A DNA stretch of 64,000 bases, from NCBI GenBank assembly GCA_963556145.1, contig OY744473.1, positions 1,674,001 through 1,738,000 on the forward strand. Direction: 5' to 3'. The notes beneath the pieces are model-generated. The model worked only from the letters and a program-made list of their open reading frames with translations. It made no database searches and had not been told where the DNA came from. Below, piece after piece: positions 14,923 to 64,000 of this stretch (positions within the stretch are counted from its first letter, which is position 1; every line of letters begins with the position of its first letter). A program made the translations under genes and the position numbers. The DNA comes from Hygrocybe punicea. Lineage: Eukaryota > Basidiomycota > Agaricomycetes > Agaricales > Hygrophoraceae.

Positions 14923-15682
14923 GTCACTTTCTTCAAGGCTTCTTCACTCTTCCCCCCAACCTCAGTTATTAAGGTTAATTGTTATACGTTCCACCACCTC
15001 GTCCAACTCTCGGCTTCTGATCGGGATCTCTATTGGGCTTTGGGTCGGTGTTTCGCTTGCGGGAAGGTGAGGCATCGCATGGAGTGTTGCCCGTTGGTTA
15101 AGGTACGCAAGGTCCTTTTGTGCCAGTTACTGGCCAACCCGTACTGTGAGTGTTTTGGTTGGTGGGTCGTCTGGGGTCTTCTGACTGAGTCTTATTCTAG
15201 AATTGGATGATGCGTGGAGGTCGGAGGAGTCGTCCCCTGAGATACCGCCGCTGATTACAGTGAGCTGGGGCTCATCATCTGAGGACCTGAGGGGTCCTTC
15301 TCCGGAGCCAGTCGGAGACTTGACTTATCGTGAGTCTGGTTTCCCACTGCTATTTGCGGTGGCTTCCAGGTTTATGATGGTTTGTCACGCAGTGATTGAG
15401 AGGTCATTGGAGAGGGAGGTTGAGCGGTTCTTGGACAATGTGCATGTCCAGTTGCAAGTGTCGGGATCATCGGTCTCGGATGCGATTACTGTAGAATAGA
15501 GTAGTCGCATTATCTGTATTTGTATCCGGTCTGGTGCCCCTTCCAGGGGTCTGTGAATGTATATGTCCCCCCACTCCGCAGGGTGTGAGTTGTAAGGGCT
15601 TGTCTGGTGATCTGTCAAAGATTGTCATGAAAATAAGTGGTATTTGAGGAAAAATGTATGGGGGTGACATATTTTCATGACA
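14923..15682. other. Unassigned region with a zinc-knuckle-like motif
   Basis: A plus-strand frame at about 15045-15095 contains C-FA-C-GKVR-H-RMEC-C, which fits the CCHC zinc knuckle spacing of Gag-like proteins. A following frame (15203-15499) cannot be joined to it by a consistent splice. At 15624-15636 and 15670-15682 the word TGTCATGAAAATA occurs as an inverted pair, the second copy ending exactly where the hAT fragment begins. Probably remnants of more than one element. Confidence 0.35.
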
Positions 15683-48775: not shown

Positions 48776-49331
48776 TGTCATATCCCATGCAGCTCCGCCG
48801 GATTCCGACGAACTCCGCTCCGGACTTTTCCGCCAACTTATCTTATCTTATCTTATCTTATATTCTCGCGTACGTTATTGTTCTTCTCTTGTTAAATACT
48901 ATTCTTCCCCATCTCCGTTTACTCCGACCTCCTTTTCTCTTCCTCCCCTTTGTTTACTTGTCACCGTACATAGCAACCTTTTATCCCTTTTATTTTCTTC
49001 CGAACTCCGGTCCTCTTTCCAGAGTTCATATTGTCTTCACGTCTCCAAGGACATGACAATTAGTTTACCAAGTATATAAACTAGAACTACAATGTCCTGT
49101 AACTCCATTCAGAAAATCAACTTGAGTTCCTTATTTCTTACCCACTCTCAAACTTAAGGCTTTCCCTTGAGCTCATTAATTATCTTAGTACTTAGTCCGG
49201 AACTCCGGACCAACTCCGCTCCGTCCACGTCTTCTCAATACGACTTAAGGAAGTAGTGAACCTACTTCAAGAGTTGACGTCTCTGCTCCTCTGAAGAACT
49301 CCGATCCTTCCGGAGTTGCACGCCTCTAACA
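48776..49331 (+). repeat. 5' LTR of chromovirus
   Basis: Contains a short TTATC microsatellite (48839-48861), many CCG/CGG triplets, and a TATATAAA box at about 49073 likely to start genomic RNA. Confidence 0.95.
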
Positions 49332-49377
49332 GTATTTTCTGAACAACTCTTGAGTCGTATTCCCTTTACATTTGATC

Positions 49378-50550
49378 ATGTCTTTCCAAGGCTTCTCCCA
49401 AAGAAGAACCCCCACACGTTATCGACTTACACGACCGGCAAACACCTCATCCAAACGCCCAACGATAACCCCAGTCTCTCCGTTAGAAGAAACTCACACT
49501 CCGAGACACGAACCCTTTCCGCGCCCAGTCTTCGAAGAGAACAATCCTCTCGGACCGGGCAATCCTAATCGCGATGATACCAACCTTGCTGAGGCCATCG
49601 CTCTTCTAGCCACTACTCTCCGAAACAAAGGAGACGACAAGCAACGCACCAAAGTCCGAGAACCGGACACGTTTGACGCCTCCGATCCGACAAAACTCCG
49701 CCCTTTCCTGGTTCAGTGTCAACTGAACTTCAATGATCGACCAACCGCTTTCCAAACGGATGGCGCCAAAGTCAACTTCGCCCTCTCCTACCTCAAAGGG
49801 ATCGCACTTGCGTGGTTCGAGCCTTACCTTTTGGAGAACCCGGATATCGATACCTATCCGCCGGACTTCATGTCCGATTACGGAGATTTCTGCACGGAGT
49901 TGCAGAATAATTTCGGACCTCTGGACCCTAAAGGTAGCGCCGAGAGCGAGTTGGAAAACCTTGTAATGAAGGATAACCAACGAATTGCGAAGTATATCGT
50001 TAACTTCAATCGTCTCGCTACGCAGACTGGCTGGGACATCGGTGCCTTACGGCATTCTTTTTACCGAGGACTTCCGGATCGCCTCAAAGATCAACTTGCC
50101 CAATCCGAGAAACCAAAGAACCTCTACGAACTGAAGGATAAGGCTCAACTCCTTGACGCCCGGTATTGGGAACGGAAATCGGAGATTTCCTGCGCTTCGG
50201 GATCCTCTTCTGCTAAAGCCTCTACTTCCGAGGCCAAGTCTTCAACCGAAAAAGCTTCTGAGAAGAAGTCCCCTACCAAAACTACCAACTCCGGTGGTAC
50301 CTCCTCCACCACTCCGAAAACCCCTCCTGTCTACGCCGATAAGCTAGGCAAGGATGGTAAACTCAAGCCCGCGGAACGTCAACGCCGCATCGACAATAAA
50401 CTCTGCATTATATGCGGGGGAGCCGGACACATGGCCAAGGATTGCACCAAGGCCAAGTATTCGTCCACTCGCGTTGCCGCCCGCGCCACCTCCACTTCCT
50501 CCGCACCTCCGGTCTCTAGTTCCGATTCTCTAGAGGAGCCTGAAAAATAG
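49378..50550 (+). CDS. Gag of chromovirus (390 residues)
   Basis: ATG at 49378 (MSFQGFSQRRTPTR). The retrotransposon Gag domain lies centrally (VNFALSYLKGIALAWFEPYL and FGPLDPKGSAESELENLVMK). A Ser/Thr/Lys-rich linker follows, then a CCHC zinc knuckle CIICGGAGHMAKDC near the C-terminus. The frame is open and ends TAG at 50548, preceded by a run of five A where a -1 shift would enter pol. Role: forms the virus-like particle and binds element RNA. Confidence 0.95.
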   Translation: MSFQGFSQRRTPTRYRLTRPANTSSKRPTITPVSPLEETHTPRHEPFPRPVFEENNPLGPGNPNRDDTNLAEAIALLATTLRNKGDDKQRTKVREPDTFDASDPTKLRPFLVQCQLNFNDRPTAFQTDGAKVNFALSYLKGIALAWFEPYLLENPDIDTYPPDFMSDYGDFCTELQNNFGPLDPKGSAESELENLVMKDNQRIAKYIVNFNRLATQTGWDIGALRHSFYRGLPDRLKDQLAQSEKPKNLYELKDKAQLLDARYWERKSEISCASGSSSAKASTSEAKSSTEKASEKKSPTKTTNSGGTSSTTPKTPPVYADKLGKDGKLKPAERQRRIDNKLCIICGGAGHMAKDCTKAKYSSTRVAARATSTSSAPPVSSSDSLEEPEK

Positions 50551-53500
50551 AGAGCAGTCTGCATACTCCGGCACAGGATGTAGGCTGCGTTGAACCTGAC
50601 TGTGCGCTACCGGAAGTAAAACTCAACGCGTCCGCTCTTTCTAACAATTCCTTGACGATTTCTCTTTATCATTCTTCTACGCTTATCGTTACCCTTGTGG
50701 ATTGTGGATCGACGCATTGTTTCATTGACCCGGAATTTTGTTCCCTTCACAATCTTCCTATTTTTCCTACTGCTCCGAAACGCCTCCGCTTGTTTGATGG
50801 TTCCTCCGGTGGAATCATCGACAAATGTGTATCTATCTCTGTCCGTTTTTCTACTGGTGAAATTCTAATCTTAGAATTTTTGGTCACTCCGTTGGATCCG
50901 TCTGTTTCCGCAGTTCTTGGATATAGCTGGCTCGCCAAATACAATCCGTTGATTGACTGGATCGAGCATAGCGTTAAATTCCGTTCTTCTGATTCCGCGC
51001 CTCCGTTGTCGACTCCGGTGCCTAGCGGGGCACCACTTCCGGACCCTCCAGTACAACCTCCGTCCCCTCCGTCCTCTCCGTCTACTCCGCCTGAACCTCC
51101 TTCACCATTCGCTTCGAAGCCTGACATCTCCTTTGTCAGTGCTCAAGCCTTTTTGCGTGGTTGCAAAGTACCCGGCACTCAGGTCTTCCATATGGAAGTC
51201 CGATTACCTGACGCCACCGGTCGCTCTGCAAGCTACGGCCCTCCGGAGTCCTCCGAACCCTCCGTGGACCTTTACAATATCCCTGAAGAGTATCACGAAT
51301 TCGCTGACGTCTTTAGCAAGACGAAGGCTTGGAACCTCCCTGAACACCGTCCTTACGACCTCAAAATTAATTTAGAGGATGGTGCAAAACCTCCTTTTGG
51401 CCCGATTTACTCTATTTCACCCTTAGAGCTCGAGACCCTTCGGGAATTCCTTGACAAGAATCTCCGGGCGGGTTTTGTCTGCTCCTCCCGTTCTCCCTGC
51501 GGAGCTCCCATTCTTTTCTCTCGGAAGAAAAATGGAAGTCTTCGACTTTGCGTAGATTTCCGAGGACTCAATCGTATCACGAAGAAGGACCGCTATCCTA
51601 TCCCTCTTACGGCGGACCTTCTCGACGCTCCCCGGACTGCGCGCATTTACACTAAAATCGACCTTAAACACACCTACCATTTAGTCCGGATTGCCGAAGG
51701 CGATGAGTGGAAAACAGCTTTCCGCACTCGCTATGGCTCGTTTGAATGGTTGGTAATTCCGGAAGGTCTTACTAACGCCCCGGCGGCTTTCCAACACTTC
51801 ATCAACGATATTTTTTCCGACCTCCTTGACGTCTCTGTCATTGTTTACCTTGACGACATCCTTATCTATTCCGATGACCCCGCTGATCATGTAGACCATG
51901 TCCGCGAGGTCCTCCGACGACTCCGGAAACACGGCCTCTATGCCAACGCCGAGAAGTGCTCTTTTGGCGTTGACACGGTGGAATACTTGGGTTACATTCT
52001 TTTCCCCCAAGGCCTTTCTATGGATCCTGCCAAGGTCCAAACTATCCAGGATTGGCCGGAACCCCGGAAGATCAAAGATGTTCAATCCTTCCTTGGATTC
52101 GCCAATTTTTACCGGCGTTTCATTCCGGACTATTCCTCCATCACTATTCCACTTACCCGGCTCACTCGTAAAGGGTTACAATGGAATTTCGATGATAAGT
52201 GTCGTTCTGCCTTCAATGACTTGAAGTCCGCTTTCATTTCCGCTCCAATCCTTTCCCATTGGTCACCCGAGTTTGACACTCTGGTGGAGACTGATGCTTC
52301 CGATTACGCCGTTGCTTCCATTCTCTCCGTACGCCATCCTGACGGTGAAATTCATCCGGTTGCTTTCCGGTCTCGTACCCTTTCAGACTCGGAGTTGAAC
52401 TATGATACCCATGACAAGGAACTCCTTGCCATCTTCGACGCTTTCACTGCCTGGCGGCATTATTTGGAAGGTACTGCTACTCCGGTCGACGTTATCACCG
52501 ACCACAAGAATTTGGAGTACTTCTCCACCATCCGCTTACTTACCCGCCGTCAAGCCCGCTGGTCGGAGTTCCTTTCCCGCTTCAACTTTGTTATCCGCTT
52601 TCGCCCAGGCAAGCTTGGCACTAAGCCCGATACCCTTACTCGACGCTGGGACGTCTACGCTAAAGGGGGAGATAGTGACTACGCCAAAGCCAATCCTCAC
52701 AATTTCCGCCCTGTTTTTGGGCCGGAACAATTGGCTTCGTCCCTCCGAGCGACTTCCCTCGAAGATGTAGTCCTTGGCGCCGGATTCACCATAGACGTTG
52801 ATTCCCTTCACTCCGATATCATCTCCGGACTACAGGTTGATCCTATTGCCTCCGGACATGTTTCCCGTACCACCTCCGGCCCAGATCCTCGATGGTCTAT
52901 CAACGATTTAGGTTTTCTACGCCTCGATAATCGTATCTATGTCCCCGATGTCAATGACCTACGACTCCGGATTTTGCGTTCCAAACATGATCATCCTACT
53001 GCAGGACACTTCGAGCAAAACAAGACTCTCGAAATCATCCGGCGGGAATACACCTGGCCCGGACTCCGGACTTTTGTCCGTGATTACTGCAAGTCTTGCA
53101 CAACCTGCGCGAGATCCAAAACCCCTCAGCATCGTCCTTACGGATTGCTTAAGCAGCTCCCTATTCCGGAGAAACCATGGATTTCAATTTCCATGGATTT
53201 CATCGAACAACTTCCGGACTCCGAAGGATTTACGGCCATCCTAGTTGTGGTTGACCGTCTTTCCAAGCAAGGGATCTTTATTCCAACTTACGATACGATT
53301 ACTTCCCCCCAACTCGCACATCTTTTCCTTATTCACGTTTTTTCTAAGCACGGAGTTCCTAGTCACATCACCTCCGATAGAGGCACGGAATTTGTTTCCC
53401 ATTTTTTCCGGTCTCTCGGAAAGGCCCTCGACATGAAACTCCACTTTACCTCCGGTTATCATCCTGAAGGCGATGGCCAAACGGAACGCGTCAATCAAAC

Positions 53501-54269
53501 CCTTGAGCAATATCTCCGCGTTTATTGCAATTATCAGCAAGATAATTGGTCGTCCCTCCTTCCTCTTGCGGAATTTGCTTACAACAACGCTCCAAACGCC
53601 ACTACCGGAGTTTCTCCTTTCTTTGCCAATAAAGGTTACCACCCTAACCTTTCCGTTCACCCGGAGCGCGACCTCTCCTCCGCCCACGCACGAAAATTCG
53701 CTGTGGACCTCGATGAGTTACATCAACAACTTCGACAAACCATCTCTGAGGCACAACAACGTTATCAACACTACGCGGACTTGAAGCGCGCTCCGCCTCC
53801 GGACTTCAAGGTTTCGGATTCCGTCTACGTCAAAGCTGAGCATTTCCGGACTACTAGACCCTCCAAGAAACTTTCTGAGAAGAACTTGGGGCCTTTTGAA
53901 GTTATTGCTAAGGCCGGTACTCACTCATATACCCTCCGTCTTCCGGAGGCTCTCCGCTCTGTTCACCCGGTCTATCATGTCTCTCAGCTCGAACCGGCGA
54001 CTCCGAATACCATTCCTAACCGTGTCCAACCTCTGCCTCCTCCGGTCGTTGTCGACGGAGAACCGGAGTTTGAGATCTCCGAAATACTCGATTCCAAGAT
54101 CGACAACCGCCGTCGTGCTTGCAAGCTACTGTACCTTGTACGTTGGGAGGGCTACGAAGGCACTGACGAAGAAACTTCTTGGATCTTGGCCTCCGAACTT
54201 GGACATGCTACTGAGCTCGTTTTGGACTTTCACTCCGCTTATCCTTCGAAACCGGGCCCATCCTATTAA
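50544..54269 (+). CDS. Pol of chromovirus: protease, RT, RNase H, integrase, chromodomain
   Basis: Open from 50544, with no ATG near the start, so expression as a -1 fusion with Gag is likely. Aspartic protease LVDCGSTHCFID; RT with LDDILIYS at about 51850; RNase H VETDASDYAVASIL; integrase zinc finger (HDHPTAGH..CKSCTTC) and catalytic SMDFIE, SDRGTEF, DGQTERVNQTLEQ; then a chromodomain EFEISEILDSK to YLVRWEGYEGTDEETSWI, which in this group guides integration to marked chromatin. About 1,240 residues, uninterrupted. The element therefore looks capable of movement. Confidence 0.95.
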   Translation, partial: KIESSLHTPAQDVGCVEPDCALPEVKLNASALSNNSLTISLYHSSTLIVTLVDCGSTHCFIDPEFCSLHNLPIFPTAPKRLRLFDGSSGGIIDKCVSISVRFSTGEILILEFLVTPLDPSVSAVLGYSWLAKYNPLIDWIEHSVKFRSSDSAPPLSTPVPSGAPLPDPPVQPPSPPSSPSTPPEPPSPFASKPDISFVSAQAFLRGCKVPGTQVFHMEVRLPDATGRSASYGPPESSEPSVDLYNIPEEYHEFADVFSKTKAWNLPEHRPYDLKINLEDGAKPPFGPIYSISPLELETLREFLDKNLRAGFVCSSRSPCGAPILFSRKKNGSLRLCVDFRGLNRITKKDRYPIPLTADLLDAPRTARIYTKIDLKHTYHLVRIAEGDEWKTAFRTRYGSFEWLVIPEGLTNAPAAFQHFINDIFSDLLDVSVIVYLDDILIYSDDPADHVDHVREVLRRLRKHGLYANAEKCSFGVDTVEYLGYILFPQGLSMDPAKVQTIQDWPEPRKIKDVQSFLGFANFYRRFIPDYSSITIPLTRLTRKGLQWNFDDKCRSAFNDLKSAFISAPILSHWSPEFDTLVETDASDYAVASILSVRHPDGEIHPVAFRSRTLSDSELNYDTHDKELLAIFDAFTAWRHYLEGTATPVDVITDHKNLEYFSTIRLLTRRQARWSEFLSRFNFVIRFRPGKLGTKPDTLTRRWDVYAKGGDSDYAKANPHNFRPVFGPEQLASSLRATSLEDVVLGAGFTIDVDSLHSDIISGLQVDPIASGHVSRTTSGPDPRWSINDLGFLRLDNRIYVPDVNDLRLRILRSKHDHPTAGHFEQNKTLEIIRREYTWPGLRTFVRDYCKSCTTCARSKTPQHRPYGLLKQLPIPEKPWISISMDFIEQLPDSEGFTAILVVVDRLSKQGIFIPTYDTITSPQLAHLFLIHVFSKHGVPSHITSDRGTEFVSHFFRSLGKALDMKLHFTSGYHPEGDGQTERVNQTLEQYLRVYCNYQQDNWSSLLPLAEFAYNNAPNATTGVSPFFANKGYHPNLSVHPERDLSSAHARKFAVDLDELHQQLRQTISEAQQRYQHYADLKRAPPPDFKVSDSVYVKAEHFRTTRPSKKLSEKNLGPFEVIAKAGTHSYTLRLPEALRSVHPVYHVSQLEPATPNTIPNRVQPLPPPVVVDGEPEFEISEILDSKIDNRRRACKLLYLVRWEGYEGTDEETSWILASELGHATELVLDFHSAYPSKPGPSY

Positions 54270-54279
54270 TTCTGTCTAT

Positions 54280-55131
54280 TTACGATTTTTGCGGACTCTT
54301 TTCAAGGTTTCCTCCTTTCCCCAAAAAATCCCCCTCTTCCCACTCCGTTTCCGTCTCCTCCGGCGCGATGTCCTCGGACTCCGGAGTGTACTTCCGGAGC
54401 TCGTATGAGTTATCTCTGAGGAACTCTAAGTTCCTCAGATGGTCGGCCCATTGAGCCGCATGTTCGCGGAGATCCTCCACGGTGTCCCATACCCCCTCGC
54501 ATGCCTCCGCGACCTGTCCCAACATCGCCGTGTTTTCTTCTGTCGCCCGGAGCAGCTTGTGAAGAAGCTGCTCCGTCCTCGTCAGCGGCTTCTTTACCGC
54601 GGGCTCCACTCCGCGGTACTCCGATCCGGATTCCTCCTTTTCCTCCTTTTTCTTTTTCTTCTTCACTCCACCCTCTTCACCATCTACCTCGCATCACGCT
54701 TTCCTCTTCTTACATGCATCGCAACTCCACGCCTTTCCGGACGCGGGCCACACACAGTTTTCCCGGCGTTCCGCGCACGCCTTGCATTGTACGGCCCTGC
54801 TTCTGTAGTCAACTCCGGTCTTTCATTTATGTGCCTTTGCTTACCCGTCTCTTTTTCTCTTCCCCTTCTCCACACTTGAGGGCCCCTCCTCCGCCGCCTC
54901 CACTTTCTTTTTCTCCTCCTCCGCCGCCGTTTTCTTCTTTATTTCCTCCACCCTTTTCATCGCCTCCACCTGGATCTTCTGTCTCCTCTCCTCTTCCGCT
55001 TTCTTCCTCTCGTCCTCCACTTTTCTCCGTTCTTCTGCCTCCTCTTTCGCCCTCATTTCGGCGAATTCGCGCTCCATCTCCTTGATGCGCGCGGCTATCT
55101 CTTGCGAGGACGATAATTGCGAGGACGACAT
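54280..55131 (-). CDS. Antisense gene: coiled coil plus six-Cys cluster (copy A)
   Basis: Runs opposite to pol, tail to tail with it (10 bp apart). Exon 1 is 54845-55131, intron 54803-54844 (42 bp, GTAAGC..CAG), exon 2 is 54280-54802; 269 codons. The N-terminus MSSSQLSSSQEI is followed by a Lys/Glu-rich coiled coil, then KRKRD. Six Cys follow with C-x2-C-x6-C-x10-C-x2-C-x6-C spacing (CKACAERREN-C, then CDACKKRKA), like Zn2Cys6 clusters but with the RK-rich half second. The C-terminal part contains EYRGVEPAVKK and FLRDNSYELR. A TGA at 54694-54696, probably from CGA, interrupts the codon just before the sixth Cys. Copy B keeps the same protein. Likely nuclear DNA-binding; function unproven. Confidence 0.8.
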
Positions 55132-55145
55132 CTTTTGGGTTGTCT

Positions 55146-55168
55146 CCTGGCCAGGAGTTTGTTTTATA
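55146..55168 (-). promoter_or_regulatory. Promoter of the antisense gene (copy A)
   Basis: GTATAAAAC (TATA box read on the minus strand, 55161-55168) lies about 30 bp before the antisense ATG. Between them is a perfect 14-bp palindrome CTCCTGGCCAGGAG (55146-55159). Both are conserved in copy B (62687-62713). Possibly a binding site for an autoregulator. Confidence 0.55.
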
Positions 55169-55253
55169 CCGTAGGCCCTCCGCTTCGAACTCCGCTGCGG
55201 TTCTCCCTTTGTTCCACAGGCGTCTCAAGGGTTCGACGCTAAGGGGGAGATAC

Positions 55254-55809
55254 TGTCATATCCCATGCAGCTCCGCCGGATTCCGACGAACTCCGCTCCG
55301 GACTTTTCCGCCGACTTATCTTATCTTATCTTATCTTATCTTCTCGCGTACGTTATTGTTCTTCTCTTGTTAAATACTATTCTTCCCCATCTCCGTTTAC
55401 TCCGACCTCCTTTTCTCTTCCTCCCCTTTGTTTACTTGTCACCGTACATAGCAACCTTTTATCCCTTTTATTTTCTTCCGAACTCCGGTCCTCTTTCCAG
55501 AGTTCATATTGTCTTCACGTCTCCAAGGACATGACAATTAGTTTACCAAGTATATAAACTAGAACTACAATGTCCTGTAACTCCATTCAGAAAATCAACT
55601 TGAGTTCCTTATTTCTTACCCACTCTCAAACTTAAGGCTTTCCCTTGAGCTCATTAATTATCTTAGTACTTAGTCCGGAACTCCGGACCAACTCCGCTCT
55701 GTCCACGTCTTCTCAATACGACTTAAGGAAGTAGTGAACCTACTTCAAGAGTTGACGTCTCCGCTCCTCCGAAGAACTCCGATCCTTCCGGAGTTGCACG
55801 CCTCTAACA
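55254..55809 (+). repeat. 3' LTR of chromovirus
   Basis: Same length as the 5' LTR. Differences seen by eye include one extra TTATC-type change near 55340 and a few C/T changes. TATATAAA at about 55551. Confidence 0.95.
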
Positions 55810-55814
55810 GGACC

Positions 55815-59685: not shown

Positions 59686-60125
59686 ACCATAAATTGACTG
59701 ATCACATGCACCAATATACCCTGTTTTGTCCATTAGCAACTGGAAATTTTATAAGAACATGTTAGAGGCATGCAACTCTGGATGGAACGGAGTTGTTGGA
59801 GGACCGGAGGTGTGAACTCTTAAAGTAGTTTTGCTACTTCCTTAAGTCACACTGAGTAAGCACAGGCGGACGGAGCAGAGTTAGTCTGGAGGTTTGGACT
59901 AAAGACGGAGACTAATAGTGAGCTTAAGGTGAAGCCCTAAGTTTGAGGATGAGGGGAACTTAAGTTGATTTTCAGAAGGGAGTTACAGGACATTGTGGTT
60001 CTAACTTATATACTTGGTAAGTTAATTGTTATGTCCTTAGTAATGTAAAGATAATAAGTACTCCGGAAAGGGAACCGGAGTTCGGAGAGGGATAAAAGAG
60101 ATAAAAGGTTGCTACATATGGTGAC

Positions 60126-61969
60126 TAGTGGGGTGTGGGCCATTGCTTTGCATGGCAGGTTACTCGTCCATTTTTAGTAATGAGAGTATACAAATAATAC
60201 AGTATTATTACCCTTCTATGATAATAAATATTTGCAAAGTTATTGATATTTCCTTTATTATTACATACTGATGCTAGTCAGATACCAATCTGATACCATA
60301 CTACAATGATATTAATTGATTATATCCTGTTCCTTCCAATTTGTCATGACCCAATATCAGATCCAAAATTGACATATTTCATATCAAGTTTGCAGTATTC
60401 AAGTTGGCAGATATATAACTAACTACCTTACTACTTTATTATTAGTCATAGTTACTGTGAAGATTTTACAGAATGTGTAGCAAGTATATCCAGAAATGCT
60501 AAGTATCTGAATTATTTGTCAGGTCAGGAACAACCTCCTGTGAGTACTGTAGAAATAATCCCATGCACAATGATACCAATTGCACTGCTATTGGAATCAC
60601 TTTGATAAGATTGCTGGTTTTGATGAGTACCAGAATCAACAATATGACTGGTTCAGCTTGTGTACACTGGCAATGCTTCAGATTAAATGAAGCTGGGAAA
60701 TTGGTGAGGCAATATTCTTGTCAAACAGTTTGACGAGTATTGGACACCTGAACCATTTCCAGCACACATGATCAAGATAGGTGTGGCGTGCATGCATGGA
60801 ATTTGTGGAACAGACAGTGTCTGTTGCACTGCAATGCTGCATACTGTGCCTGAGTCACTGGCCCAATGATTTGCTGAAAATCATTCAGCCTATTGTACCA
60901 GTATTGAGAATGTATTAAGTATGATGTGCATTGCAAGGTTATAGAGCAATAGTACAGACCCGTCCAATATACAGGTAATACTACTGTTTGTACAATGGCA
61001 TTGCCCAGCATTGAAGATGGAAGACCATATTATACCTGGGAAGCTTGCTGAATGCTTTCTGGTACATTGTTCTACCTGTTGAATGAGTAAGCACTGCTTG
61101 CATTGTTGATGATTTCAAAGTGCATATTAAATATTGCTACATCACAGACACATCCAATATGCTGTTCATACAGTGGTTTGCACATTGGGAATGTCTCAGA
61201 TGAAAACTGGGACACCTACCGAACACTTACCGAACACCTTTGGACCTGTGTGACAAATAGTCACTGCTTGCATTGTCAATAATTCTAATGCACATTGTAC
61301 ATGCATCCACATTACAGATACATCAAATACGTTGTTCGTACAGATGTTTGTGCAAGTGGAATGCCCAAGATTAAGGCTGGGACACTGACCGAACACTTTA
61401 CTGAACACATCGAACACCTTTGCAAATAGTCACTGCTTGCATTGTCAATAATTATAATGCACATTGTACATGCATCCACATTACAGATACATCAAATACG
61501 TTGTTCGTACAGATGTTTGTGCAAGGCTGGGACACCTACTGAACACTCACCAAACACATCTGGACCTGTGTGACAGGTGTACAATGAACACTGCTCGACC
61601 TCTTTTCATTGTCAACAATTCTAATACACACAGTAGATATAACTACATGACAGATACCACTGACATATTGTTCATTAATACATGGTGCATTGCATTACCA
61701 ATGCATGTGATTATTATAAGAAACCGATTGCAATTGCAATACTAAAATGATATGACACTACCCATTTCCACATTGGCTGCTGTGATCTGGCTGCCTTATT
61801 GTTCTTGCTGATTGGGACAACAAATTCTCACACTCAACTCCGCCCAGTCACACGGTTTCATAATTATTCCCAGGGCTTCAAAATTGTTCCCACAGCTTGG
61901 CAAATTAGAGTCTGACCCTGAGTTTGAGAATCCACCATATAGAACGATTCCCTTATAGGGACTCATAAC
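60126..61969. mobile_element. 1.84-kb insertion splitting the LTR of copy B
   Basis: Defined by comparison with the intact LTR: GGTTGCTACATATGGTGAC is followed by foreign sequence until AAGTAAACAAAGGG resumes. AT-rich, with a tandem repeat at 61090-61640 and no recognised protein. Target duplication not evident. Confidence 0.6.
61090..61640. repeat. Tandem repeat, period about 165-180 bp, about four units
   Basis: Units contain TCACTGCTTGCATTGTCAAT, ATGCACATTGTACATGCATC, GTTGTTCGTACAGATGTTTG and GGGACACCTACCGAACAC. The two central units (about 61263 and 61429) are nearly identical. Confidence 0.85.
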
Positions 61970-62212
61970 AAGTAAACAAAGGGAAGGAGATGGATAGGAG
62001 TCCAGAGAAATGGAGATGAAGAAGAATAGAGTAACAAGGGAAAGGAACAATAACATATGCGAGAGGATAAGATAAGATAAAATGGCAGAAAAGTCCGGAG
62101 TGGAGTTCATCAGAATCCTTCAGAGTTGCATAGATATGACAGTATCCCCCCCTTAGCGTCAAACCCCTGAGATGCCTCTGGAACAAAGGGAGAACTGAAG
62201 CAGAGTTTGAAG

Positions 62213-62727: not shown

Positions 62728-63590
62728 ATGTCATCCTCACAGGAACTCACAGCCCACATTAAGCAAATGGAATGGGAATTCGCCGAGCTGAGGGTGAAGG
62801 AAGAGGAGGAGGAGTGGAGGAAAGTGGAGGAAGAGCAGAAGCTGTTGGCAGAGAAGGAAATGTGAAGGAAGGCAGAAGCTGAAGCAAGGAGAAAATGGGA
62901 GGAGATGAAGAAGGCAGAGGAGGAGAAGAGGAAAAAAGCAGAGGAGGAGAAAAGAAGTAAGGCCGCAGCGGGGGTGTCCAGAGCTGGTCCCAGACCCATG
63001 AGCATGGAGAAGGGGAAAAGAAAAAGGGACAGGTAAGCAAATTAGTCGCATCCAAGCAGACCCAGAAGTGACAAAGACACAGGGCCATCCAGTGCAAAGC
63101 GTGCGTGGAGCGCCAGGAGAACTGCATGTGGCCAGAGACTGGTAAGACAAGGAGTTGTGTGGTGTGCCAGAAGAGAAAGGTGCAGTGTGAGGTAGAAGGA
63201 GAAGATGGTGTGGTGAGGAAGAAGAAAAAGAAAGAGGAAAAAGAGGAGTCCAGATTGGAGTACCGTGGAGTGGAGCCAGCAGTGAAAAAAGGCTCCAAGT
63301 CCTCGACGTGGGTGGAGGAACTTCTCCTCCAGTTGCTCCGGGCAACCAAGGAGAATATGGCAATGTTGGAGTGGGTCGTGGAAGCCTGTGAGGGGGCTTG
63401 GGACACCGTGGATGACATCTGCAGAGAAGCTGCCCAGTGGGCAGACCACCTGAGGAATGTGGAGTTCCTCAGGGACAACTCCTATGAACTCCGGGATTTC
63501 AGTCCAGAGTCCAAGAACTTCAAGCTGGAGGAGGTGGAAACGGAATGGGAGGAGGGAGAGTATTTGGGAGAGGGGGGCAAAATGGCCTAA
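62728..63590 (+). CDS. Antisense gene: coiled coil plus six-Cys cluster (copy B)
   Basis: Exon 1 62728-63032, intron 63033-63082 (50 bp, GTAAGC..CAG), exon 2 63083-63590; 270 codons, same phase-2 splice position as copy A. N-terminus MSSSQELTAHIKQ, Lys/Glu-rich coiled coil, KRKRD, six-Cys cluster (CKACVERQEN-C..CVVCQKRKVQC) with all six cysteines, then EYRGVEPAVKK, WDTVDDI, REAAQWADHLRNVEFLRDNS. One TGA at about 62863 (GAAATGTGA) interrupts the coiled coil, again explained by CGA to TGA. Exon 2 is strongly similar to copy A, although the surrounding LTR is much decayed. Confidence 0.75.
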
Positions 63591-63627: not shown

Positions 63628-64000
63628 TTAATAAAACGGGCTGGGTTTAGAGGGGTATGCAGAGTGAAAGTCCGAAACAATTTTGGAGGCATGTCCGAGT
63701 TCGGAGGCCAGAATCCAAGAGGTTTCTTCATCGGTGCCCTCGTAACCTTCCCAATGTACAAGGTATAGTAACTTGCAGGCACAACAATGGTTGTCAATTT
63801 TCGAGTCAAGGATTTTGGAGATCTCAAACTCTGGTTCTCCATAAACAGTGACCAGAGGAGGCAGAGGTTGGACACGATTGGGGATGGTATTCGGAGTGGC
63901 AGCTTCGAGCTGAGAGACATGGTAGATGGGGTGAACAGAGTGGAGAGTTTCCAGAAGACATAGTGTATAGGAGTGGGTTCCAGCCTTAGGGATAATCTCG
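63628..64000 (-). CDS. Pol C-terminus with chromodomain (copy B, partial)
   Basis: Open to the window end. Contains PVYHVSQLE-type text (HPIYHVSQLEAATPNTIPN), FEISKILDSKID and YEGTDEETSWILASELGHA, the chromodomain, and ends at TAA 63628. Aligns with the end of pol in copy A. Confidence 0.85.
   Translation of the reverse strand, partial: EIIPKAGTHSYTLCLLETLHSVHPIYHVSQLEAATPNTIPNRVQPLPPLVTVYGEPEFEISKILDSKIDNHCCACKLLYLVHWEGYEGTDEETSWILASELGHASKIVSDFHSAYPSKPSPFY

Follow-up and report, generated by a model that had tools for sequence, protein, structure and literature searches.

The Ty3/gypsy retrotransposon at positions 48776-55809 of a window of Hygrocybe punicea DNA (64,000 nucleotides; assembly GCA_963556145.1, contig OY744473.1, 1,674,001 to 1,738,000) carries a spliced gene on the strand opposite to gag and pol, and the open reading frame (ORF) of this gene is almost certainly a selected protein-coding gene. 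The gene has an intron and a promoter-like block, is linked to the element, and coincides, among the Gypsy families tested, with an excess of the word CGGA/CTCCGG in the same family. Together, the selected antisense gene for a zinc protein of DNA-binding type and the density of a word of the kind that such proteins commonly bind suggest that this parasite marks and controls its own copies. More tentatively, with a probability that we place somewhat short of even, the element encodes a sequence-specific zinc-cluster protein in antisense, with the recognition word of this protein, CTCCGG/CGGAG, written into the long terminal repeats (LTRs) and the synonymous positions of the genes. The sequences analyzed were those of one genome (92.2 Mb, 42 contigs), in which 24 matches to the Fungal_trans family agree with a fungal origin.

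Structure of the antisense gene and its host element

In the element at 48776-55809, the gene (copy A, minus strand) consists of exon 1 (54845..55131), which encodes a charged coiled coil according to sequence and alignment, and exon 2 (54280..54796), which encodes a cluster of six cysteines, a basic linker, a long helix, and an acidic tail and contains an internal stop. The intron between them, placed by alignment, has 48 nt (54797..54844, GTAAGC...CAG) and includes in-frame stops. A second copy (copy B, 62728..63590, plus strand; exon 1 62728-63032, intron 63033-63082, exon 2 63083-63590) sits in an older, decayed element of opposite orientation, the pol 3' end of which is convergent with copy B at 63628..63995 (minus strand, locus L029, inverted repeat, 81%). 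In an alignment of 32 rows, a few of which duplicate one place or one segmental duplication, the donor GTAAG was kept in 31 rows and the acceptor AG in all 32; the introns measured 43-51 nt. Since the sense genomic RNA does not lose an intron that lies on the other strand, such an intron can survive retrotransposition.

A sequence-only reading of the window had proposed a spliced antisense gene between pol and the 3' LTR, with a charged coiled coil, a six-cysteine array, and a C-terminal region in both copies, and the exons, the intron, and the conserved splice sites confirmed this layout. Its protein length of 269-270 codons needed correction. Alignment with 30 other rows moved the acceptor 6 nt further on, to the boundary between AAGCAG and GG, giving introns of 48 nt in copy A and 50 nt in copy B and 267 and 270 codons, respectively, before the final stop. 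Copy A retains a second tandem acceptor 6 nt earlier, with which an intron of 42 nt is possible. As the same reading had stated, the two copies each contain a single stop, at different sites; it is an in-frame TGA that lies outside the intron (54694-54696, minus strand, in copy A; 62863-62865 in copy B).

A TATAAAA box (55162..55168, minus strand) lies 37 nt upstream of the antisense ATG, and a palindrome, CTCCTGGCCAGGAG (55144..55157), also lies upstream of the ATG. The general form of the palindrome is CTCCTGG(N)CCAGGAG, with one extra base in the B group of copies. The B-group form of the TATA-palindrome block had 20 matches in the genome at up to two mismatches, 17 of them directly upstream of a gene copy on the same strand and three elsewhere; the reversed control had none. 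Just upstream of the TATA box, two CTCCG/CGGAG motifs 12 bp apart (55178..55194) were read from the sequence.

The LTRs of the host element are 556 bp each (5' LTR, 48776..49331; 3' LTR, 55254..55809; both plus strand) and differ by five mismatches without gaps; a 5-bp target duplication, GGACC, borders the outer sides of both, and the 3' LTR is dense in CGGA/CTCCG. With 5 of 556 LTR sites differing, the element is young. Its gag ORF with a zinc knuckle (49372..50550, plus strand) matched Retrotrans_gag at 44.2 bits and zf-CCHC at 21.0 bits (cut-off 20.8), and its pol ORF (50652..54269, plus strand) matched RVP_2, RVT_1, RT_RNaseH, Integrase_H2C2, rve, and SH3_Tf2-1 above cut-off. The order in pol is protease (PR), reverse transcriptase (RT), RNase H (RH), integrase (INT), SH3_Tf2-1, and a chromodomain-like C-terminus. 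The order of gag followed by PR-RT-RH-INT, and the LTRs with their target-site duplication, identify a Ty3/gypsy element (Metaviridae). The label chromovirus, given by the sequence-only reading, probably fits the element, although the Chromo match at the pol C-terminus is slightly below the Pfam cut-off (24.2 versus 25.1 bits).

Copy number and linkage to the element

DNA searches returned at least 41 matches with copy A and at least 44 with copy B as the query, and a 21-nt pattern indicated at least 50 close copies in the genome. The stop in copy A is private, being present in one of 43 exact matches to a 21-nt pattern spanning the site. Of 34 distinct close copies (48 loci minus 14 repeats of the same place), 33, all but copy A, had an exon 2 open at least as far as residue 164, and the spliced frame was open in all 20 close copies fetched. 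The layout was also preserved in 18 diverged loci. In seven close copies (L063, L067, L068, L070, L074, L075, and L077), the protein stops 7 codons early, so its last residues are variable or dispensable.

Of the 30 loci examined (29 distinct places), 28 have the pol C-terminus beside the antisense gene and on the other strand, a result at odds with relatives existing only as unlinked host genes or random captures. An LTR match was found in 27 of the 30, including both loci without a pol end. When loci were collected by a pol-domain search, all 18 of copy A's Gypsy family had the antisense gene, and tblastn (E up to 1e-3) against about 1.2 kb after pol did not detect it in any of the 12 loci of another Gypsy family. 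In position, orientation, and conservation in most copies, the gene is an antisense additional ORF of the aORF-3R type. Among 5.8 billion proteins, the only homologue was P0001 (165 aa, exon 2, 68% identity), an absence that means little in a database presumed to be poor in fungi. The viral contigs searched contained no homologue of the antisense protein.

Selection on the antisense frame

The codon analysis was based on 27 rows after removal of five near-identical ones; the IQ-TREE runs contributed only the codon alignments and the DNA tree. The pooled ratio of nonsynonymous to synonymous substitution rates (dN/dS) in the antisense frame was 0.125 (bootstrap over codons, 0.07-0.19). In the comparison of one A-group copy with 17 B-group copies, the full coding sequence gave 0.12 and exon 2 gave 0.14; within the B group, the full sequence gave 0.23. 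In exon 2, the other frames of the same strand gave 0.88 and 1.35, and those of the opposite strand 1.11, 0.31, and 1.83. The value of 0.31 was expected because the third positions of that frame coincide with those of the antisense gene. Because dS is near saturation (about 1.9), the ratio itself is only approximate; the difference among the frames stands. Among the young A-group copies, dN was 0.012 and dS was 0.036. The subfamilies, about 0.6 substitutions per site apart, share the same order and the same intron. The dN/dS check proposed with the sequence-only reading, for which a value near 1 among copies would have spoken against the gene, thus turned out in its favor, and the frame-specific values rule out a chance non-coding ORF.

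Zinc-cluster domain of the predicted protein

The predicted protein of about 270 residues carries a coiled coil at its N-terminus, followed by a cluster of the Zn2Cys6 type, a linker rich in basic residues, and a long helix that probably dimerises. The cluster (54691..54786, minus strand) reads C-x2-C-x6-C-x10-C-x2-C-x6-C and thus has the Zn2Cys6 spacing C-x2-C-x6-C ... C-x2-C-x6-C. In an alignment of nine rows (A2), five of the six cysteines were invariant, and the third (C12) was missing in the decayed copy L033. Structure prediction for exon 2 gave two CxxC helices followed by the basic linker and the long helix, and all 18 Foldseek matches in the PDB were Zn2Cys6 DNA-binding domains, each at a non-significant score. 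The zinc cluster claimed by the sequence-only reading is supported as Zn2Cys6-like, although its Pfam score is sub-threshold. A sequence search of the antisense protein against the PDB gave nothing significant. The Pfam families obtained for exon 1, the spliced protein, and nine exon-2 rows did not include TRP28 (PF04195).

Accumulation of the CGGA/CTCCGG word

The counts covered words containing CGG, as paired CGG triplets are the typical target of Zn2Cys6 proteins (PMC5559640, in the part available). On both strands together, the element contains CGGAG 103 times, where two other stretches of the window would predict 6.5. In pol, shuffling of synonymous codons, which keeps the protein and the codon usage, gave 66.7 CGGA (standard deviation 5.8) against 111 observed and 6.1 CTCCGG against 20 observed, and neither count was reached in 1000 shuffles. 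In unbiased 4-mer scans, CGGA ranked first in pol (z 7.4), in gag (z 4.2), and in the antisense coding sequence (z 3.9). The excess in pol was present on each strand (CGGA 39 versus about 22; TCCG 72 versus about 45) and in each of the three codon phases, with z from 1.5 to 4.4, and persisted under a control that also keeps the dinucleotides at codon junctions (z 4.7, reached in none of 500 shuffles). The 3' LTR stretch 55253-55812 contained 21 CGGA, against 4.6 in dinucleotide shuffles, and three further pol pieces of copy A's family had z values of 5.6 to 7.8. Six of 116 tests of half-site spacing in pol exceeded z 4, the largest signals being TCCG repeats 9 bp apart (6 versus 0.6) and TCCGGA (15 versus 4.4). 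We claim no spacing rule because three of the six 9-bp pairs stem from one run, 51059-51089.

The controls came from other Gypsy elements of this genome: 12 long open frames next to the pol domain, which represent a few families; a thirteenth stretch, L093, was left out as it lay on the wrong side of pol. CGGA was not in excess in any of the 12 (z -1.4 to 0.5), and the nearest other Gypsy family, with a pol end 39% identical, had 27 CGGA versus 24.0 expected.

Conservation was examined in 565 bp of pol against 13 B-group copies (17 B-group loci with a pol match minus two duplicates, one 108-bp stub, and one partial 62% match). At 19 motif sites, 0.77 of comparisons kept the bases flanking CpG, against 0.51 at 65 CpG sites elsewhere (permutation p 0.007). 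With stratification by codon phase, a value of 0.53 was expected, and the observed value was reached in 6 of 5000 permutations. These values come from copies that are related to each other and from a test that only partly controls amino-acid constraint on pol; they are good but not final evidence that the word itself is under selection.

Proposed mechanism and alternative explanations

VANC proteins of Arabidopsis bind a short word that occurs at high density in the VANDAL family encoding them and is rare in other families (PMC5735166, PMC10398659; both available in part). A comparable mechanism can be proposed for the element studied here. The antisense-strand TATA block between pol and the 3' LTR would drive the spliced gene, and the protein would bind the CGGA/CTCCGG word throughout the element DNA, probably as a dimer. 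Binding would control the transcription or chromatin of the element's own copies, most likely as LTR activation or anti-silencing, and the two CGGAG sites beside the antisense TATA box could provide feedback on its own promoter. We consider the whole chain, a self-encoded, self-targeting, VANC-like regulator whose binding we infer from the sequence, to be evenly balanced between true and false.

Several results weigh against this mechanism. The predicted structure had a pTM of 0.27, and no Foldseek match was significant (best E 0.99). Pfam Zn_clus scored 12.0 and 12.4 bits, below the curated cut-off of 21, and was matched by four of nine exon-2 rows (best E 0.18), whereas the lowest E-value for exon 2 belonged to zf-PHD-like (two rows, E 0.0052). 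In Gal4, the basic run follows the first CxxC, whereas in the antisense protein the strongest one follows the second. As for the word, the 116 spacing tests revealed no paired half-site rule in pol, and the gag excess was lost under the junction-preserving control, where 50 of 500 shuffles reached it. Two of the 12 control frames showed a mild excess of a longer word (CTCCG, z 2.8, in L088; CTCCGG, z 2.2, 2 versus 0.5, in L084), and the pol piece of L084 had 25 CGACA versus 9.2 at synonymous sites (z 6.1). Other Gypsy families may thus have words of their own, as CGACA in the L084 family. In one of six codon-phase classes, the motif sites were kept less well than the controls (0.77 versus 0.84).

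Some of these results also speak for other explanations. The selected protein might act otherwise, in nuclear import, RNA binding, or protein-protein regulation, with CGGA being recognised by an LTR-driving host factor. The highly basic linker and the sub-threshold Zn_clus score agree with such a role, and antisense proteins of plant elements can be nuclear with a role that is unknown (PMC7264820, in the part available). However, a host-factor site would be expected in the LTR and not through pol in all three codon phases, and the gene and the CGGA excess coincide in the same family among those tested; we regard this alternative as unlikely, while taking it seriously. Somewhat less probable still is that codon context or composition in this lineage produced the motif excess as a by-product, unrelated to the antisense protein. 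The CGACA excess in another Gypsy family and the non-significant gag excess under the stricter control would fit a by-product, but CGGA comes first in the unbiased scans of all three ORFs, including the one of opposite orientation, and the non-coding LTR is enriched in it as well; the pol excess survives the stricter control, and the motif sites were kept better than phase-matched CpG sites.

Gene capture by LTR elements is known, and only one homologue was found outside this genome, so the gene could be a passenger, a host gene captured in this burst of copies. We consider this very improbable: the order and the intron are the same in the distant subfamilies at a dN/dS of 0.12, and none of the 30 loci lacked both the pol end and the LTR match (two lacked the former and three the latter). 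The linkage at these loci and the selection result disfavor a captured host gene. Alternatively, the antisense RNA alone might matter, through double-stranded RNA or interference with the sense transcript, the reading frame being incidental. Antisense transcripts of retroelements can act as RNA (PMC7264820), and transposon-derived antisense non-coding RNAs are described in Blumeria (PMC10648671), both in the parts available. Against this stand the strong constraint at the protein level in one frame only and the open spliced frame in every close copy fetched, and the explanation is hardly tenable because the dN/dS result refutes it.

If the self-targeting regulator is real, the protein could coat and control its own family alone, as a self-addressing, VANC-like system that evolved independently and has its address in the coding sequence. 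Such binding would extend VANC-type self-targeted regulation beyond plants and DNA transposons, and would mean that a transposon can evolve a recognition array within its own coding sequence. To our knowledge, no function has been assigned to the antisense genes that have been catalogued in LTR retrotransposons over decades. With its likely DNA-binding fold, strong evidence of selection, and a candidate target word in excess on the same element but not on the other Gypsy elements tested in this genome, the present gene reduces the question of what such accessory genes do to a single binding assay.

Comparison with known systems

The comparisons below draw on the parts of the cited papers that were available. 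The sequence-only reading knew of no fungal case, which did not hold: the Boty element of Botrytis cinerea and Sclerotinia carries the antisense gene brtn, located after pol and before the 3' LTR (PMC7264820, PMC8365987, PMC4227169). From its description, Boty, which has a chromodomain, is likewise a fungal Ty3/gypsy element with an extra antisense gene at this place; the available text on it does not mention motif accumulation, a feature of the present element. Some fungal chromodomain Gypsy elements have an additional ORF of unknown function, a likeness taken from a figure description (PMC2864245). In plants, Grande gene23, RIRE2, and Retand ORF4 with TRP28 are antisense aORFs at the same place (PMC7264820, PMC11963269). 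They too lie between pol and the 3' LTR and are kept in most copies; Grande has its own antisense promoter, and TRP28 has predicted DNA binding. In contrast, the protein described here has a Zn2Cys6-like cluster and no match to TRP28, pol is probably of the chromovirus type whereas the Retand lineage is non-chromovirus, and the conserved intron and the motif accumulation are not mentioned in the available text for plant aORFs. In the open-access literature, screened mostly by titles and the beginnings of abstracts, no fungal antisense zinc-cluster gene was described.

The present case shares with VANC an element-encoded protein and an element-specific word of high density, as judged by control families of this genome. 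It differs in that VANDAL is a DNA transposon with proven VANC binding at sites in non-coding tandem repeats, whereas in the present element the word runs through both coding sequence and LTR, with one short local run at 51059-51089, the protein is of another type, and its binding is putative. With Gal4-type Zn2Cys6 fungal factors, the protein has in common the six-cysteine spacing, the linker and long helix, a CGG-containing word, and perhaps, by prediction, the fold; it differs in being encoded by a retroelement, in its sub-threshold Pfam score, and in the place of its basic run. HBZ of HTLV-1 is a bZIP protein of a spliced antisense gene expressed from the 3' LTR. It resembles the present case as a spliced antisense gene of a retroelement with the layout of a coiled-coil regulator, whereas the present protein has a zinc cluster, and the promoter-like block of its gene is internal to the element; bZIP was not among the Pfam matches of the antisense protein. 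The likeness is, as the sequence-only reading had put it, one of layout only. Antisense accessory genes were thus known from plants and Boty, and the CGGA/CTCCGG word, which the sequence-only reading does not mention, is the new finding. By analogy, the case would combine an antisense accessory gene with a VANC-like word, adding a Zn2Cys6-like fold and a word inside coding sequence.

Other Gypsy families and features of the window

Antisense to pol, the nearest other Gypsy family carries an exon that is conserved and open and encodes a CCHC knuckle, RCFACGKxxHRxEC (L097 702-1025, minus strand; L098 1007-1345, plus strand; window 14926-15144, plus strand). It was found at 85 places genome-wide, 82 of them without a stop, at identities down to 51%. 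Five same-strand pairs lie 5.8-8.2 kb apart, four of which flank the pol end of that family; these pairs suggest that the exon is located in both LTRs. An abundant Gypsy family with an open frame of 1437 aa has a sense open frame of 288 residues after pol in the two copies read (L100 472-1335 and L101 474-1337, plus strand). A third family has antisense open frames of up to 209 residues after pol (L062 501-1127, plus strand, no Pfam match), with similar fragments in L055, L056, and L060. In the window itself, the copy B element has an LTR that extends over 2.4 kb (59760-62141) and seems to be interrupted by unrelated DNA that includes an array of units of about 170 bp near 61084-61525.
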